Both the position numbers and the translations under genes were made by a program. 29,560 nt of DNA, taken from positions 1 to 29,560 of IMG/VR virus record IMGVR_UViG_3300035698_020123, one strand, 5' to 3'. This document shows positions 3,500 through 15,070 of this stretch, piece by piece (the stretch's first letter is position 1; each line of letters opens with the position of its first letter). Below the pieces are notes generated by a model. It had not been told where the DNA came from. It saw only the letters and a program-made list of their open reading frames with translations, and did no database searches. The DNA is from a virus.

Positions 3500-3943
3500 T
3501 TATTTATATATATATTTACAATTAAGGTGGTCTATTTCGTGTTGGAATATTTTAGATTTATGTCCGCTTAAATTTTCTCTAATAGTATCTGATAATGTTC
3601 CATCTTTTTTTACTGTTTTATATTCTACTTCACATTTATTCCATCTCGGCACTAAAATTTGTCTTTGCTTAGGAAAACTCAAACAGCCCTCCAAACTATC
3701 AACAGGAACAACTGTGTGTCTAATTATTTTTGGGTTTACTATAATCTCGCCAGTTTTTAAGACAAAAAACCTCAAAGGATAATTATCTTCTACTTGCTGA
3801 TGAGCAATAGCAAAACCACCATTGTATAATCCAATGGGTTTAAAACAAAGTTTTATCATTTCTGTTGCGTCTTTAATTACTCGCAACAGGTTTTCTTTTT
3901 TCACTTCTTCGCTTTTATTTTGATGCGCTTTTATTATTTCCAT
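3500..3943 (-). CDS. def: Peptide deformylase
   Basis: The product is 147 aa, slightly shorter than cellular deformylases. The three signature motifs are in order: GFAIAHQQV (motif 1, normally GxGLAAxQ, here with L-A replaced), EGCLSFP (motif 2, metal-binding Cys) and QHEIDHLN (motif 3, HExxH with two metal-binding His and the catalytic Glu). The enzyme removes the N-formyl group from new proteins at the ribosome exit. Phage deformylases are known from marine phages, where they are thought to speed maturation of phage or photosystem proteins. Motif 1 is divergent, and the C-terminal helix typical of ribosome binding is missing, as in other phage forms. It lies in the minus-strand early region. 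Confidence 0.93.
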   Translation of the reverse strand: MEIIKAHQNKSEEVKKENLLRVIKDATEMIKLCFKPIGLYNGGFAIAHQQVEDNYPLRFFVLKTGEIIVNPKIIRHTVVPVDSLEGCLSFPKQRQILVPRWNKCEVEYKTVKKDGTLSDTIRENLSGHKSKIFQHEIDHLNCKYIYK

Positions 3944-4170: not shown

Positions 4171-4244
4171 AGGTTTTTTTGATAATTATTTATCTTTTCG
4201 CATATTTCCCATATTAAATAGTTTAGTTAAAAAAACGGAGACAC

Positions 4245-4291
4245 CACCCCTAATACCTTTCGGCTATTCTCGAAGAATATAAATAGGGGTG
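4245..4291 (-). other. Nested hairpin in a long leader
   Basis: CACCCCTA (4245-4252) pairs with TAGGGGTG (4284-4291) over 8 bp. Inside, TATTCT (4265-4270) pairs with AGAATA (4274-4279). The interior on the minus strand includes ATAGCCGAAAGG, similar to the repeated ATATAGCCCGAAAA leaders further right. It sits in the 208-base gap 4171-4378, upstream of the gene at 3958-4170. The rest of that gap holds one cassette 3' element (4320-4342) and A/T-rich sequence. Confidence 0.5.
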
Positions 4292-4319
4292 ATGAGCGTT
4301 GATAGAGTATCGACTAACA

Positions 4320-4342
4320 CTCTAACAATTAAATAGTGAAGC
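4320..4342 (-). repeat. Cassette 3, 3' complementary element
   Basis: This is the downstream member of an inverted pair with 4773-4795. In the minus-strand mRNA the two pair over 23 continuous positions, with three G-U pairs. It corresponds in position to 4803-4827 and 5623-5647 but has a different sequence (core ACAATTAAATAGTG). Confidence 0.6.
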
Positions 4343-4378
4343 AATTAAATTTATAATTAAATTTCTAATTCACAATAT

Positions 4379-4630
4379 TTATAATTTAATTTCTCTAATA
4401 AGGTCGGTAAATTTCTCCTGTTCTTCTTTCGGCAAAGCGTTATAATGAACACTGCCAGTTATAAAGCACCACTCGCTGTCGTCGCTCCCATCAGGGGCTT
4501 CTTCTTTCCACTTATTTATTATAATATCTTCACCGTTGTCAAGTTTTATGGTAAAATCTTTAGATATTATTTTATTAATTAGTTGTGTATCTATTATTTT
4601 TATATGTTTATAATTTAGTATTAATAGCAT
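4379..4630 (-). CDS. Hypothetical protein
   Basis: The product is 83 aa from the ATG at 4630. An earlier ATG at 4651 would overlap more deeply with the preceding gene and is less likely. The body is soluble and acidic: KLDNGEDIIINKWKEEAPDG, then SEWCFITGSVHYNALPKEEQ, ending in a helix. It has the look of a small beta-rich phage protein; no family is recognised. It overlaps the end of the 48-aa gene at 4608-4754, so the two are translationally linked and share one cassette bounded by complementary elements. Confidence 0.65.
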   Translation of the reverse strand: MLLILNYKHIKIIDTQLINKIISKDFTIKLDNGEDIIINKWKEEAPDGSDDSEWCFITGSVHYNALPKEEQEKFTDLIREIKL

Positions 4631-4754
4631 TAAATAACAAATCATAGGCAATTGTTCTCTCTTGTCTTTCTTCTAGAGTTCCCCCCATTTGTTCTGCTTG
4701 TTCGTCTATTAAATTTAATGTGTCTAATAGTTCTAATTTTTTATCGTGTGTCAT
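4608..4754 (-). CDS. Small hypothetical protein
   Basis: The product is 48 aa: MTHDKKLELLDTLNLIDEQA, then EQMGGTLEERQERTIAYDLL. It is helical and acidic, a short two-helix protein by appearance. The ATG at 4754 is preceded by GGAG at a 9-10 base spacing (ACGGAGATAAACATT), the same Shine-Dalgarno pattern as the genes at 4835 and 5661, which supports it. It is the first gene of cassette 3. The function is unknown. Confidence 0.7.
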   Translation of the reverse strand: MTHDKKLELLDTLNLIDEQAEQMGGTLEERQERTIAYDLLFNAINTKL

Positions 4755-4772
4755 AATGTTTATCTCCGTTTA

Positions 4773-4795
4773 GCTCCACTATTTAATTGTCAAAG
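4773..4795 (-). repeat. Cassette 3, 5' leader element
   Basis: This is the 5' leader of the gene at 4608-4754. It is complementary to 4320-4342 (23 of 23 positions including G-U). It is homologous in place to the leaders at 5072-5096 and 6261-6285, but its sequence has changed together with its own 3' partner. Confidence 0.6.
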
Positions 4796-4802
4796 AATTA
4801 AA

Positions 4803-4827
4803 CACTCTAAAAGGTAAATACTAGGCA
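4803..4827 (-). repeat. Cassette 2, 3' complementary element
   Basis: It lies just after the stop of the gene at 4835. It is complementary to that gene's leader (5072-5096) at 24 of 25 positions, including two G-U. It sits in a 39-bp block (4801-4839) repeated exactly at 5621-5659. Confidence 0.65.
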
Positions 4828-4834
4828 AAGTTAA

Positions 4835-5053
4835 TTAATTAAATAATATATTCTTAACAGGTACATCATTAAAAATATTAATATGTACACCAATTCTATC
4901 ATTTGGTAAATCAAAAAGATTTTGTAGTTGAGTTTGTAGTGTGTGTGCTTGTGATTGTTTTAAATTATAGTCTGGCTCGTGTTGTTCTTCTTTTGTTTTA
5001 AATTGTTTGAAAGCTATTTTATTTATAGTATCAAAAACAGTAAAAATAGTCAT
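4835..5053 (-). CDS. Hypothetical protein
   Basis: The product is 72 aa beginning MTIFTVFDTINKIAFKQFKT. The start at 5053 is chosen because GGAGACAAATTTT lies directly before it, exactly as before the gene at 5661-6242; an in-frame ATG at 5068 overlaps the Shine-Dalgarno itself. The protein has a short beta-like start, a glutamine-rich middle (KQSQAHTLQTQLQNLFDL) and a beta-like end (GVHINIFNDVPVKNI). It is unknown, and alone in its cassette. Confidence 0.7.
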   Translation of the reverse strand: MTIFTVFDTINKIAFKQFKTKEEQHEPDYNLKQSQAHTLQTQLQNLFDLPNDRIGVHINIFNDVPVKNILFN

Positions 5054-5071
5054 AAAATTTGTCTCCATTTG

Positions 5072-5096
5072 TGCCTAGTATTTACTTTTCAAAGTG
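5072..5096 (-). repeat. Cassette 2, 5' leader element
   Basis: This is the leader of the gene at 4835-5053, nearly identical to that at 6261-6285 and complementary to 4803-4827. It ends at the GGAG Shine-Dalgarno region. Confidence 0.65.
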
Positions 5097-5114
5097 CAAA
5101 TAATAATAATCAAG

Positions 5115-5248
5115 AAGGATGAGACAATATCTAGCAATCATTTTATGATATTATCTCTTAGCTATAGAAAGCCAAATCCTTTGCTTCTACCTTGACTGCT
5201 TAAGCTACTACACCCTTACGGGTGGGCGGGATTCGAACCCACATCCTT
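5115..5248 (-). ncRNA. tRNA-mimicking RNA, candidate Y RNA (YrlA-like)
   Basis: Read on the minus strand, AAGGATG and CATCCTT at the two ends pair. Inside, in order: a canonical T-arm (GTGGG-TTCGAAT-CCCGC); an acceptor-like stem CACCC/GGGTG sealed by a GUAA (GNRA) tetraloop; a D-arm-like segment with GCTT/AAGC and AGGTAG; a short AAAG/CTTT hairpin; and an 11-bp hairpin (GAGATAATATC with GATATTGTCTC). The last contains a U-G pair that would be A-C on the other strand, supporting minus-strand transcription. A normal tRNA would have acceptor-5', D, anticodon, T order; here the order is permuted and the acceptor end is closed. Bacterial Y RNAs of the YrlA type, reported near Ro60 genes in bacteria and phages, have such a domain. 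No Ro60 gene is in this window. A tRNA-derived attachment site is the alternative. Confidence 0.5.
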
Positions 5249-5278
5249 ATTAATTACTATTAATATTTATATGTTTAG

Positions 5279-5572
5279 TTAATAACAATAATATTCTATA
5301 TAGCTATCGTTTTCGGCTTGTTTGCTCATCTTTTGTAGAATAAATAAAATATTTTTTTTACTTTCATCTTGTTTGACTTTTATATCCCCAGACTTAATAT
5401 TTTTAATTAAATTATTTATACTATCTTCTTGTATTGTTATTAAGCCACCACCATTGTTGTCTAATTGTTCAGTATCAACTAGATTATAGTAAATAGTTTC
5501 ATTATTCCAAAGATTAAAAGTTGGACTTTCTTCAGTCTTAATCTCTTTTAGTTTATATGCTCTTACACTCAT
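5279..5572 (-). CDS. Hypothetical protein
   Basis: The product is 97 aa and acidic: MSVRAYKLKEIKTEESPTFN, then LDNNGGGLITIQEDSINNLI and a helical end with a tyrosine-rich tail (IEYYCY). There is no membrane segment and no known motif. Its 54-bp upstream region is identical in most positions to that of the gene at 6338-6544, so the two share control. The tRNA-mimic RNA follows about 30 bases after its stop. Confidence 0.7.
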   Translation of the reverse strand: MSVRAYKLKEIKTEESPTFNLWNNETIYYNLVDTEQLDNNGGGLITIQEDSINNLIKNIKSGDIKVKQDESKKNILFILQKMSKQAENDSYIEYYCY

Positions 5573-5623
5573 ATATTTTTTACTTAGTTATTAATTTTCG
5601 GGCTATATCAAGAGTATTTAAAC
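5570..5623 (-). promoter_or_regulatory. Leader II, copy 1
   Basis: This is about 50 bp upstream of the gene at 5279-5572 and is almost identical to copy 2 (6542-6595). The core on the minus strand is AAATACTCTTGATATAGCCC followed by GAAAA. Two more divergent copies occur at 6883-6906 and 7397-7422. It may be a phage-specific promoter or a 5' UTR control element. Confidence 0.6.
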
Positions 5624-5647
5624 ACTCTAAAAGGTAAATACTAGGCA
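5623..5647 (-). repeat. Cassette 1, 3' complementary element
   Basis: Identical to 4803-4827. It lies just downstream of the gene at 5661-6242 and is complementary to that gene's leader at 6261-6285 (24 of 25 positions). Confidence 0.65.
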
Positions 5648-5660
5648 AAGTTAATTAATA

Positions 5661-6242
5661 TTATACTAAATATTCTTCTAAATTCTCATCTTTAAATTCT
5701 TTTGGTAAACCATCTCTTATATTTTCAATGTTATAAAACCCACTGCAATAATCTTGCAATTCTCCGTCTTCATCATAAACATTGACGGCATAAATTTCAC
5801 CATCTGTCCATTGATTATATAATTCTAGTTCTTGCTCTATTGTAGTCTCAAAGTCTTTTGGCGCTAGTCCAAATTCTTTTTGAGTTTTGTCCGTAATAAT
5901 ATAAAAGCCATTATTACTATAATCAAAGCCGTTCTTTTCCCCTAAACTATATTTTACACCGCTATGCTCATATTTTGATATGGGAAAAATTGCGATTACC
6001 TTCTCTTCTTGTGTTTCATTTATTTCTGCTGTTATGGCCTCTATATGTTCTTTTAGATTTTTAGCAATTTCACCATTGTTTTTAATTATCTCTTGCATTA
6101 TTTCGTGTTGGTCGGGACTATTATAATTCTTATCAACTGTTATAAAATATCCTAAATTACTATCTTCTCTCGGGCTAGTAGCAAAGTCATCTATAAATAT
6201 CTCTAGTCGTGGCTTTTCTACTTCTTGTTTATATGTTTTCAT
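5661..6242 (-). CDS. Conserved phage hypothetical protein
   Basis: The product is 193 aa, acidic and soluble. The N-terminal segment RLEIFIDDFATSPREDSNLG with FITVDKNYNSPDQ resembles a conserved phage and plasmid protein with an SPRE-x-DNLG signature and an H-x-x-Y-x-LGD-like follow-up; its function is not known to me. The C-terminal half has EFGLAPKDFETTIEQELELY and a beta-rich end (GEIYAVNVYDEDGELQDYCSGFY). The ATG at 6242 follows GGAGACAAATTTT. The gene is alone in its cassette between complementary elements. Confidence 0.8.
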   Translation of the reverse strand: MKTYKQEVEKPRLEIFIDDFATSPREDSNLGYFITVDKNYNSPDQHEIMQEIIKNNGEIAKNLKEHIEAITAEINETQEEKVIAIFPISKYEHSGVKYSLGEKNGFDYSNNGFYIITDKTQKEFGLAPKDFETTIEQELELYNQWTDGEIYAVNVYDEDGELQDYCSGFYNIENIRDGLPKEFKDENLEEYLV

Positions 6243-6260
6243 AAAATTTGTCTCCGTTTG

Positions 6261-6285
6261 TGCCTAGTATTTACTTTTTAAAGTG
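6261..6285 (-). repeat. Cassette 1, 5' leader element
   Basis: This is the leader of the gene at 5661-6242. It is complementary to 5623-5647 and differs from the cassette 2 leader at one position. Confidence 0.65.
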
Positions 6286-6337
6286 CTAACTAATTTACTC
6301 ATTACTAGGCTACCAAGTAGTCCAGTGTATCAATAAG

Positions 6338-6544
6338 CTAATCACAAATATCAAATTCAATAATATCAAATTCAATATCATCCATTTTTATCTTTTCATT
6401 ACATTTGGCACAAATTACTTTTTCAAAGCCGTCTGTTTCTCCGCTTTTTACTGCTAGTTTGCCAGTCTCTAAATCTAGCGTTCCACTGTTCCAGATAGTT
6501 TCTTTTACAAAGAATTCATTTGAGCCACATTTACATCTTGTCAT
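6338..6544 (-). CDS. Small zinc-ribbon protein
   Basis: The product is 68 aa. CKCG near residue 4 and CAKC near residue 46 give a two-knuckle zinc ribbon; the segment between is beta-rich (LDLETGKLAVKSGETDGFEK). The C-terminus is acidic and repetitive (IEFDIIEFDI). Such stand-alone ribbons often bind nucleic acid or RNA polymerase, but nothing here decides that. The start at 6544 is set by the leader II copy shared with the gene at 5279. Confidence 0.75.
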   Translation of the reverse strand: MTRCKCGSNEFFVKETIWNSGTLDLETGKLAVKSGETDGFEKVICAKCNEKIKMDDIEFDIIEFDICD

Positions 6545-6595
6545 ATATTTTTTACTTAGTTATTAATTTTCGGGCTATATCAAGAGTATTTAAAC
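6542..6595 (-). promoter_or_regulatory. Leader II, copy 2
   Basis: Nearly identical to 5570-5623 and placed at the same distance from the ATG of the gene at 6338-6544. A diverged version of the cassette 3' element (about 6594-6630) follows on its right. Confidence 0.6.
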
Positions 6596-6624
6596 CTCTA
6601 TAAAAGGGAGACGAGCAAAGTTAA

Positions 6625-7229: not shown

Positions 7230-7364
7230 TTAAAAGCCTTTTTTTAATATTTCGTTTAGTCTTTTATATTTTTTAGGGTAGTTCATAAACCAAGTTGGGT
7301 CTATTTCTTTTTCAATCTCTGTTGGTTCTTTTTTTTGTTCTTTATTCTTATTTACTGTTTTCAT
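7230..7364 (-). CDS. Small hypothetical protein
   Basis: The product is 44 aa: MKTVNKNKEQKKEPTEIEKE then IDPTWFMNYPKKYKRLNEIL. It is lysine-rich with a hydrophobic centre (TWFMNYP). The ATG at 7364 follows the leader II copy at 7397-7422 in the same arrangement as the genes at 5279 and 6338, which is the main evidence that it is real. The function is unknown. Confidence 0.55.
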   Translation of the reverse strand: MKTVNKNKEQKKEPTEIEKEIDPTWFMNYPKKYKRLNEILKKGF

Positions 7365-7396: not shown

Positions 7397-7422
7397 TTTT
7401 TCGGGCTATATTGAAAGTATTT
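7397..7422 (-). promoter_or_regulatory. Leader II, copy 4
   Basis: Minus-strand AAATACTTTCAATATAGCCC and then GAAAA, 33 bases upstream of the ATG at 7364. TTCTCTCTCTAT lies about 20 bases further upstream, and a similar CT-rich block precedes copy 3. Confidence 0.5.
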
Positions 7423-9982: not shown

Positions 9983-10876
9983 ATGAAATGCAAAAAGCAT
10001 CCAAAGTATCTTGGTAAAAGAAAACCCACTAGTGGTTGTGAAACTTGTATCGAAATTTGGAAAAACAAGAATCCAATCGAGAAGTATAGAGGCCAGGATA
10101 AAATAAAAAGTAAACCAATCAGGCTTAATCGTTACGAAATGAAAGTTAAACCTGGTAAAGATTATGCAGAAATGGTATTCTGGGGAGATGTTCACCTTGG
10201 ACATCCAAAGTGTCAAGAAAAAGATGCGAAAGACATGCTTGAGCATTGCTTGCAAAAAAATATCCCAGTATTACTTATGGGGGATTTGATTGAAAGTGGT
10301 ACAAGAGAAAGTGTTGGTAGCGGCGTGTATGAACAGTTAATTAATCCTCAAGTTCAAATGGAACAGATGATTGAATGGTTAACACCACTAGCAGAAAAAA
10401 ATCTAATAATTGGTCTTCATCAGGGTAATCATGAAAATAGAATTACCAACATGACTGGTATTGATGTTTCAAAAGTAATGGCTCGGATACTCAAAGTTCC
10501 TTATCTGGGTTATGCCTGTTGGAATTTAATCAAAGTTGGAAAACAAAATTACACAGTCTATTCTAATCATGGTAGTTCTGGTTCTCGTTTTAAACATACC
10601 AAGATGAAAGCTGTTATGGATTTGACTGGTTGGTTAGATGCTGACTGTATAGCCATGGGGCATGTTCACTCTGTTGCAAGTGAAGCAATGATAAAACAAC
10701 AGGTTGACATGCGTAACAAAACTGTAGTAGAAAAGAAATGTTACGTTGTATTAACTGGTAGTTATATTTCCTGGGATGGTACTTACGCCCAGATGAAAAA
10801 CTTTCCAATAACAAAATTAGGTAGTCCTAAAGCAAAACTATTTGCTGATAGGAAGGAAATTTATTTTAGTTTTTAA
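9983..10876 (+). CDS. Calcineurin-like metallophosphoesterase
   Basis: The product is 297 aa. The N-terminus MKCKKHPKYLGKRKPTSGCE with CETC forms a small zinc knuckle. The phosphoesterase motifs follow in order: GDVHLGH (~70), LMGDLIESG (~95), GNHE (~150), SNHGSSG (~195) and GHVHS (~228), all with the metal-binding D, H and N residues. The fold hydrolyses phosphodiesters or phosphomonoesters; phage relatives include DNA exonuclease-like and nucleotide phosphatase forms, and the substrate here is unknown. The start has the best Shine-Dalgarno in the late region (AAAGGAG, 7 bases before ATG). It lies between a peptidase gene and the terminase genes. Confidence 0.88.
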   Translation: MKCKKHPKYLGKRKPTSGCETCIEIWKNKNPIEKYRGQDKIKSKPIRLNRYEMKVKPGKDYAEMVFWGDVHLGHPKCQEKDAKDMLEHCLQKNIPVLLMGDLIESGTRESVGSGVYEQLINPQVQMEQMIEWLTPLAEKNLIIGLHQGNHENRITNMTGIDVSKVMARILKVPYLGYACWNLIKVGKQNYTVYSNHGSSGSRFKHTKMKAVMDLTGWLDADCIAMGHVHSVASEAMIKQQVDMRNKTVVEKKCYVVLTGSYISWDGTYAQMKNFPITKLGSPKAKLFADRKEIYFSF

Positions 10877-13486: not shown

Positions 13487-15070
13487 ATGTATAAAGAACT
13501 TTTATTTGGTGATGATGCCAGACAAAAAATCACAAAAGGTTTAAATATTGTTTCAAAAGCAGTTGGATCAACCTTGGGCCCAAGAGGTCAAAATGTAATA
13601 TTTGAAGAAAGCTCATATCCTACAATTACTAAAGATGGCGTTTCAGTTGCCCAGCAAATATTTTTAGAAGACAAATTTGAAAATATGGGAGTAATGCTTA
13701 CAAGAGAAGCAGCTGAAAATACGAACAGGGAAGCTGGTGATGGTACAACCTCAACAGTTATACTTCTTTCATCAATGGTAAATGAGGCCAATAAATATAT
13801 AGCGACTGGAATGAATCCTATTCTTATTAAAAGAGGGATGGACAAAACCTTAGTAAGTATATTGGAAGTTTTAAAAAAGAAATCAAAACCAATCAAGACA
13901 GACGAAGAGAAATTACAGATAGCAACAATTTCTGCAAACAATGACAAAGAGATTGGTGATATGATTTACAATGTTATTAAGAAAGTTGGAACAGATGGAG
14001 TGGTTACAGTTCAGACTACTGGAAATTTAAGAACAGAAGTAGAATATGTACAGGGTACAAAACTTAATTCTGGGTTTCTATCACATGTCTTTATTAATAA
14101 TCACAAGAAAGTTTCAGCAGAGATGCAGAGCCCATCTATAATTGTAAGTACAGACAATATAACTAATCAGGATCAGCTAGTACCTATTGTAGAAAAATTA
14201 GTTTTGAGTGGCAAGAGAAACATGGTTTTACTTGCAAACAACATAGAAGGAAGTGCACTTGCATTCTTGATACAAAATCATTTGCTTGGAAAATTTAGCT
14301 GCATACCAGTTAAATTACCATCCTTTGGTGATTATCAAACAGATTTAGTTTATGATCTAGCAGCCTTAACCAACTCTACAGTTTTAGGAATTGAAGATGC
14401 AAAGAAAATAGAAGATGGCGAACTAGAAGACTTTGGAACAGCTGAAACTGTTATAGTCGATAGAGATTCTATTGTTATTTCTGGCGGCGTTGGAAATATC
14501 AAGAAAAGAATACAAGAAACAAAAACATTCTTGAAAGAAGAGAAAGACATTTATAAGATTGAAAAACTTAAAGATAGATTGGGGCGTTTGACTGGTTCAA
14601 TTGCGAACATAAAAGTCGGCGGTGCCTCAGAAACAGAACAGATAGAAATAAAATATAGAATAGAAGACGCACTCAATGCAACGAAGTCAGCAATACAAGA
14701 AGGTATTGTAGAGGGTGGTGGAGTAGCTTTGCTTAAGGTAAAAAAAGAAGTTGAGAAAATTACTAATGAGCAGGAAGAGTTTAATGCTGGTGCAAAAATT
14801 GTTTTAAACTCACTTAGCAAGCCACTTAAAAAAATTGTAGATAACGCTGGAGAGAATGGAGACACTGTTGTAGATAAAGTTTTAGAAACTGGATTAGGAT
14901 ATGATGCCTTAACAGGTGAATATGGAAATCTCTTTAAAATGGGAATCATAGATCCATTTAAAGTTGTAAAAAATGAAATAATTAATGCTGTAGCGACTGC
15001 GAGTATTCTTATTACAAGCAACACAGCTATAGCTATCAAGCCAATTAAACCACAAAAAAAAGATGAATAA
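13487..15070 (+). CDS. groEL: GroEL-like chaperonin (Cpn60)
   Basis: The product is 527 aa, about 20 shorter than E. coli GroEL. The ATP-binding motifs are clear: TLGPRGQNV (~30), KDGVSVA (~50), GDGTTST (~86), GVGAP-like EGIVEGGGVAL (~400) and the C-terminal NAGENGDTVV and DPFKV. The apical and intermediate domains between are colinear. The flexible Gly-Gly-Met tail is missing; the end is basic (PIKPQKKDE). It folds proteins in an ATP-driven chamber. Phage GroELs are known (e.g. Pseudomonas phage EL), usually without a GroES. Here it is paired with one and sits between packaging and portal genes, so virion proteins are the likely clients (inference). Confidence 0.95.
   Translation: MYKELLFGDDARQKITKGLNIVSKAVGSTLGPRGQNVIFEESSYPTITKDGVSVAQQIFLEDKFENMGVMLTREAAENTNREAGDGTTSTVILLSSMVNEANKYIATGMNPILIKRGMDKTLVSILEVLKKKSKPIKTDEEKLQIATISANNDKEIGDMIYNVIKKVGTDGVVTVQTTGNLRTEVEYVQGTKLNSGFLSHVFINNHKKVSAEMQSPSIIVSTDNITNQDQLVPIVEKLVLSGKRNMVLLANNIEGSALAFLIQNHLLGKFSCIPVKLPSFGDYQTDLVYDLAALTNSTVLGIEDAKKIEDGELEDFGTAETVIVDRDSIVISGGVGNIKKRIQETKTFLKEEKDIYKIEKLKDRLGRLTGSIANIKVGGASETEQIEIKYRIEDALNATKSAIQEGIVEGGGVALLKVKKEVEKITNEQEEFNAGAKIVLNSLSKPLKKIVDNAGENGDTVVDKVLETGLGYDALTGEYGNLFKMGIIDPFKVVKNEIINAVATASILITSNTAIAIKPIKPQKKDE

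Follow-up and report, generated by a model that had tools for sequence, protein, structure and literature searches.

Complementary leader and trailer arms around phage gene cassettes: a possible module for closing the mRNA

Introduction

Why should neighbouring gene units of a phage be enclosed by leaders and trailers that can pair with each other? The question is raised by a stretch of 29,560 bases with 31.5% GC (the window), which is one complete IMG/VR record, IMGVR_UViG_3300035698_020123, and whose source is a tailed phage, with PHROG matches to terminase, portal and capsid. An earlier note on this DNA had described three gene cassettes whose leader and downstream elements pair over 23–25 positions, had taken a concerted change of both elements in the third cassette as the mark of selection for pairing, and had offered three roles: RNase III-type cutting that releases monocistronic RNAs, end-to-end closing of the mRNA, and cassette exchange by recombination. 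Bacterial mRNAs that are closed end to end are represented by few cases in the searchable open-licence literature, mostly concerned with silencing, and no phage example of the present arrangement was found there.

The same phage also encodes a GroEL protein (13487–15070, Pfam Cpn60) and a peptide deformylase (3500–3943, minus strand). A GroEL gene, together with an adjoining mhsp60 gene, is carried by the distantly related Manatee Spring phage MW202566 as well.

Anatomy of the Cassettes

Minus-strand genes occupy positions 175 to about 7,400 of the window. Read in the minus sense, the order is a gene fragment, an orphan trailer (6620–6590), a gene at 6544–6338, cassette 1, a gene at 5572–5279, a tRNA-like RNA, cassette 2, cassette 3 and a terminator; the features below are on the minus strand unless marked otherwise. 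In cassette 1, the 5' leader (L) arm at 6261–6287 pairs with the trailer (T) arm at 5621–5647 over 27 positions (24 Watson–Crick, 2 G·U, 1 A·C). The ribosome site AAACGGAGAC (6250–6259) lies between the L arm and the ATG, which are 18 nt apart, and the open reading frame (ORF; 5661–6242) encodes a 193-aa protein of PHROG 6186 with no assigned function, whose predicted fold (pLDDT 41) is too poor for use. The T arm stands 13 nt past the stop codon.

Cassette 2 repeats this layout around a 72-aa ORF (4835–5053) that has no relation to the cassette 1 protein: its L arm (5072–5097) pairs with the T arm (4802–4827, 7 nt past the stop) over 26 positions (22 Watson–Crick, 3 G·U, 1 A·C), and the ribosome site AAATGGAGAC (5061–5070) falls within an arm-to-ATG gap of again 18 nt. 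Cassettes 1 and 2 are thus nearly identical frames and arms around unrelated genes. The L arm of cassette 3 (4773–4801) directly abuts the T arm of cassette 2 and is unlike the cassette 1 and 2 arms in sequence; it pairs with 4314–4342 over 29 positions (23 Watson–Crick, 5 G·U, 1 U-U), and its ribosome site AAACGGAGAT (4762–4771) is likewise placed in an 18-nt gap. This cassette holds two ORFs, of 48 aa (4608–4754) and 83 aa (4379–4630), and since the start of the second overlaps the first they look translationally coupled; the T arm follows 36 nt past the stop.

The three cassettes with paired leader and downstream elements described earlier are therefore present, near the positions given in the earlier note and with helices of 26–29 nt. 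The pairing of 23 of 23 positions reported for cassette 3 is right for the inner 23 pairs, while the full arms pair at 28 of 29 with G·U allowed. The description of arms bounding single genes has to be modified for cassette 3, where the two overlapping ORFs make the transcript, and not the gene, the bounded unit.

A probable intrinsic terminator, with a predicted CACCCCUA/UAGGGGUG stem followed by a U run, comes after cassette 3 (4228–4292). The sole other copy of AAACGGAGAC in the genome lies at 4235–4244 on the plus strand, antisense in the tail of this terminator.

The orphan T arm at 6590–6620 has its own arm sequence, GCTCGTCTCCCTTTTATAGAGG, and the gene fragment before it lacks a start codon. 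No pairing partner was found for it within the window (best score 26). By its sequence it appears to be a relic cassette, showing that arms can stay behind after loss of the 5' part; it is not a case of one-sided drift in an intact cassette.

Two further elements accompany the cassettes in this gene cluster. A promoter-like leader, AAATACTYTYRATATAGCC(C)GAAAA, is repeated at 7422, 6906, 6591 and 5619, with two copies identical over 55 nt; it precedes the genes at 6544 and 5572 and also stands ahead of a small ORF whose start is at 7364. The pattern occurs in 15 viral contigs, none of which shows cassettes there, and a portal relative (L010:1-2000) has its own repeated leader, GAGCTTACGGCTCAAAAAATA, ahead of several small genes. 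The tRNA-like RNA at 5262–5110 has a permuted order and a fold z-score of -3.9. Its 5' part consists of a T-arm GTGGGTTCGAATCCCGC and an acceptor-like CCACCC, then a GUAA loop, after which come GGGTG, a D-arm-like part and an anticodon-arm-like part (UGG), with a long outer stem enclosing all. ARAGORN rejects the direct form and gives only weak matches to the rotated form at a relaxed threshold, and Rfam recognises the T-arm alone.

Pairing of the Arms Against Background

On the coding strand and with G·U allowed, 26 of 27, 25 of 26 and 28 of 29 positions pair in cassettes 1, 2 and 3, and the scores of each leader against its own trailer are 47, 44 and 48. Dinucleotide shuffles of the same stretches gave mean scores of 19–20 and a maximum of 36 in 1000, from which p is extrapolated at about 7e-6 to 2e-5 for each cassette. 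The maximum own-leader/own-trailer score among all other genes of the window is 24. Among 4,659 ORFs from the viral loci retrieved, only the window cassettes and one in a second phage (L056, see below) score above 35, the four together ranging from 44 to 52. Complementarity arising by chance in AT-rich DNA would draw on the low GC content of the genome and on the commonness of weak inverted repeats, but the shuffle and background tests strongly disfavour it and the L056 case sits in a phage of 45% GC, so that it is barely credible.

Minimum-free-energy folds of the full transcripts contain the helix in all four cassettes. In the ensembles of single transcripts, arm pairing reaches 0.93–1.00 in the sense RNA versus 0.68–0.86 in the antisense RNA, and the predicted duplex energies of the four cases are -33 to -46 kcal/mol in sense and -21 to -32 kcal/mol in antisense. 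In a joint transcript, cassettes 1 and 2 are predicted to cross-pair through their arms, with a pairing of 0.65 for the own partner and 0.29–0.30 for the other. Rfam gave no match for the cassettes.

A Cassette in a Second Phage

Viral contigs were searched for the ribosome-site motif common to the cassettes, AAAYGGAGANAAANNTTATG, and each match was tested for paired arms. The pattern occurs in 102 viral and 119 bacterial stretches, and paired arms were found in L056 only, a contig of the phage IMGVR_UViG_3300020043_003990 (45% GC), whose structural gene set differs from that of the window. Its cassette carries a ParB-like protein of 243 aa (257–988). The arms, CTTGAAAACTTGCTACCTGCTGTCTCGC and GTGAGGCAGCAGGTAGTAAGTTTTTAAG, are unrelated to those of the window and pair at 28 of 28 positions, four of them G·U, and the distance from the end of the L arm to the ATG is 19 nt. 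The ribosome site shared by L056 and the window is a product of the search design; the paired arms and their spacing are not. Since the predicted promoter reaches to 201 and the L arm begins at 210, the arm would stand at the 5' end of the mRNA.

This cassette is, judged by sequence comparison, a recent insertion. A contig without it, L282, belongs to a phage that is 95% identical to that of L056 in the tail tube protein, and its empty site reads GCGGTGCTTTTTTGTGAGTAAAAGAAGAAACGG, where G001 has TTTTTTGT and AGTAAAGAAGAAACGG separated by about 846 bases. The insert is ordered as a promoter-like TTGATC-17-TACAAT, L arm, ribosome site, ORF and T arm, its right end falls within two bases of the T arm, and no conventional terminator was found inside it. 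The junction of L282 and G001 shows no clear target-site duplication. There is no transposase among the cassette ORFs, and one acting in trans is possible. The two phages differ in a structured region just past the insertion site (L282:12824-13010 versus L056:1022-1170), with seemingly compensating changes and no Rfam match.

Four intact cassettes in two phages were thus detected in total. No close relative of the window that covers the region was found, and a search with the cassette 1 protein returned none. Portal relatives of the window stop short of the region or lack it, and no cassettes were found in relatives recovered with the peptide deformylase, in twenty relatives of the L056 phage, in Patescibacteria prophage regions with related portals, or in T7, lambda and three Manatee Spring phages. 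The trailer pattern gave 26 matches, all unrelated, and the ribosome-site pattern, present in 2 of 380 genomes, is rare among Patescibacteria. One candidate, the gene at 10532–10329 of L045, whose flanks pair over 21 nt (2 G·U), was rejected for its different geometry and a trailer that overlaps the stop codon. The cargo of the cassettes is of varied size (193, 72, 48+83 and 243 aa); scans of Pfam, PHROGs and NCBIfam gave no toxin match for it, and PADLOC gave weak matches (E 6e-4 to 1e-2).

Selection on RNA or on DNA

Seven pairs are changed on both sides between cassettes 2 and 3, with pairing kept. The concerted change claimed in the earlier note is therefore real, but it amounts to one comparison, as the arms of cassettes 1 and 2 are near-identical, and the covariation as a whole draws on three paralogous frames and one unrelated case. 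Read on the coding strand, the four cases depart from perfect complementarity through G·U at 14 positions, through A·C at 2 and in another way at 1; the G·U and A·C numbers swap on the opposite strand. Counting shared ancestry once and dropping the end pairs leaves about 9:1 for G·U versus A·C (p about 0.01, worked out by hand), a count on which it bears that the arm ends were set with a score favouring coding-strand G·U.

A DNA-level repeat is expected to show no strand preference for G·U. The bias thus argues for selection on the mRNA and not on DNA repeats, a good argument from sequence, though not an overwhelming one. The inverted-repeat form of the arms, the near-identity of the cassette 1 and 2 frames around unrelated genes and the recent insertion of the L056 cassette would all suit a transposable or invertible unit with the arms as its ends, or else paired operators of a DNA-binding protein. 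Yet the G·U bias is confined to one strand, the orientation of the arms relative to the transcription unit is constant across the four cassettes, and no clear target-site duplication is seen at the junction. Moreover, terminal inverted repeats would form the extreme ends of an element, whereas the G001 insertion starts with the promoter, ahead of the L arm, and stops where the T arm stops; the arms are therefore not both ends of the inserted unit. A DNA-level origin of the repeats is accordingly held to be quite improbable. For the same reason, recombination at the arms is disfavoured as their primary role, although cassette exchange could occur there as a by-product, as the near-identical frames of cassettes 1 and 2 around unrelated genes suggest.

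Good sequence evidence for arm pairing thus exists, and the earlier claim of selection for pairing at the RNA level is supported by the compensatory changes, the coding-strand G·U bias, the stronger pairing in sense than in antisense, and an independent phage with unrelated arms.

The Ribosome Site and Translation Control

The cassette ribosome site, AAAYGGAGA, stays outside the helix. Among the 43 window genes inspected, GGAG precedes the ATG in only four, those of the three cassettes and one at 9983, and the remaining genes have A-rich leaders (3 of 3 versus 1 of 40; Fisher p about 3e-4, calculated by hand). An initiation site of its own thus comes with the cassette into a genome of A-rich leaders.

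Long-range 5'–3' pairing acts on translation in hok and icaR (PMC5502269, PMC3868564), and a trailer that folds back could switch the message off or on in the same manner. In addition, the terminator that follows cassette 3 has a tail, GUCUCCGUUU, complementary to the ribosome sites of the cassettes, with which its RNA could pair (predicted duplex -15 to -17 kcal/mol). However, the Shine–Dalgarno (SD) region lies outside the arms in all four cassettes, so that the icaR-type contact between the 3' UTR and the SD region is absent. The predicted accessibility of the ribosome site stays about the same when the T arm is left out (with/without: 0.60/0.63, 0.56/0.59, 0.73/0.67 and 0.61/0.69), which counts against a switch of the icaR kind, and translation control is given only a small probability. 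The open ribosome site in the folds speaks for a helix lying just outside the space that the footprint of an initiating ribosome takes up.

What the Helix May Do

The reading preferred here, to which we assign about an even chance, is that of a portable module that closes the mRNA, with a helix that protects both RNA ends. The 5' leader and the 3' trailer would anneal into a 26–29-bp helix that loops the mRNA around its ORF or ORFs and ends 18–19 nt ahead of the start codon, leaving the ribosome site in the loop. Such a helix would keep 5'-sensing nucleases away from the 5' end and exonucleases away from the 3' end, a protection that would reach full-length messages only, and it may return a terminating ribosome to the vicinity of the start codon. 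The letters of the arms would be free to drift if both change together, giving each module a private lock. We infer that the helix forms in cells and that its role is protective. Of the three roles offered in the earlier note, closing fits the anatomy best because the arms stand at the transcript ends and the ribosome site is left free; the mRNA loop itself is a prediction. Against this reading stand the cross-pairing predicted for cassettes 1 and 2 and the weakness or absence of promoters ahead of the L arms in cassettes 1 and 3. Transcription of cassette 3 probably comes from upstream, and its L arm abuts the T arm of cassette 2, so that in a read-through RNA the helices would be internal and not at the ends.

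Cutting by RNase III, as in rRNA leader–trailer stems and with single-gene RNAs as the product, is the main rival, though a rather unlikely one. The helices of 26–29 bp match the 25–40 bp of the pre-16S rRNA leader–trailer helices that RNase III cleaves (PMC10250234), a joint transcript would bear tandem stems where the T arm of cassette 2 abuts the L arm of cassette 3, and private arms would tolerate cutting. In L056, on the other hand, the arm is at the predicted 5' end of an mRNA with its own promoter directly past the upstream terminator, which leaves little for RNase III to release.

The arms might also form a split terminator, in which transcription ends only once the new trailer anneals to the leader of its own message, with the whole gene in the terminator loop. 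UUUUU comes directly after the strong part of the L056 stem and is matched by an A-tract on the opposite side, but the loop, at 757 nt, is the whole ORF, and the U-tracts at the window arms are weaker, of UUUU or less. A split terminator is considered improbable, and if it were true, only RNAs with an intact 5' end would gain a proper 3' end.

Should closing of the mRNA be the true role, a reusable format closes varied phage genes with private locks and an open ribosome site in unrelated phages, and provides a compact means of stabilising or insulating messages.

Comparison with Known Systems

Among protein-coding mRNAs, a close likeness is offered by icaR of Staphylococcus aureus, whose 5' and 3' UTRs pair with each other within one molecule, an arrangement that complementarity and folds predict for the cassettes as well. 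The icaR contact is made by a short motif, UCCCCUG, which masks the SD and creates an RNase III substrate (PMC3868564), whereas the cassette helix is 26–29 bp long, stops before the SD and is built from arms that vary between cassettes. The mRNAs of hok and other type I toxins (AapA) are also closed at full length by pairing of the 3' end with the 5' region; closing keeps a small toxin silent there, in a system that includes an antisense RNA, while the cassettes carry varied cargo and keep the SD open in silico.

Leader–trailer helices of rRNA share the covariation-supported long helix that joins the two sides of an RNA unit, and the cassettes fall within their range of length. They differ in that the rRNA helices, which RNase III processes, enclose structural RNA, whereas the predicted cassette helices enclose ORFs. 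Finally, phage moron cassettes resemble the inserted unit as independent promoter–gene units placed beside a terminator, as the empty site of L282 illustrates, but at the position where a terminator would be expected the present cassettes have a trailer arm that pairs with the leader.
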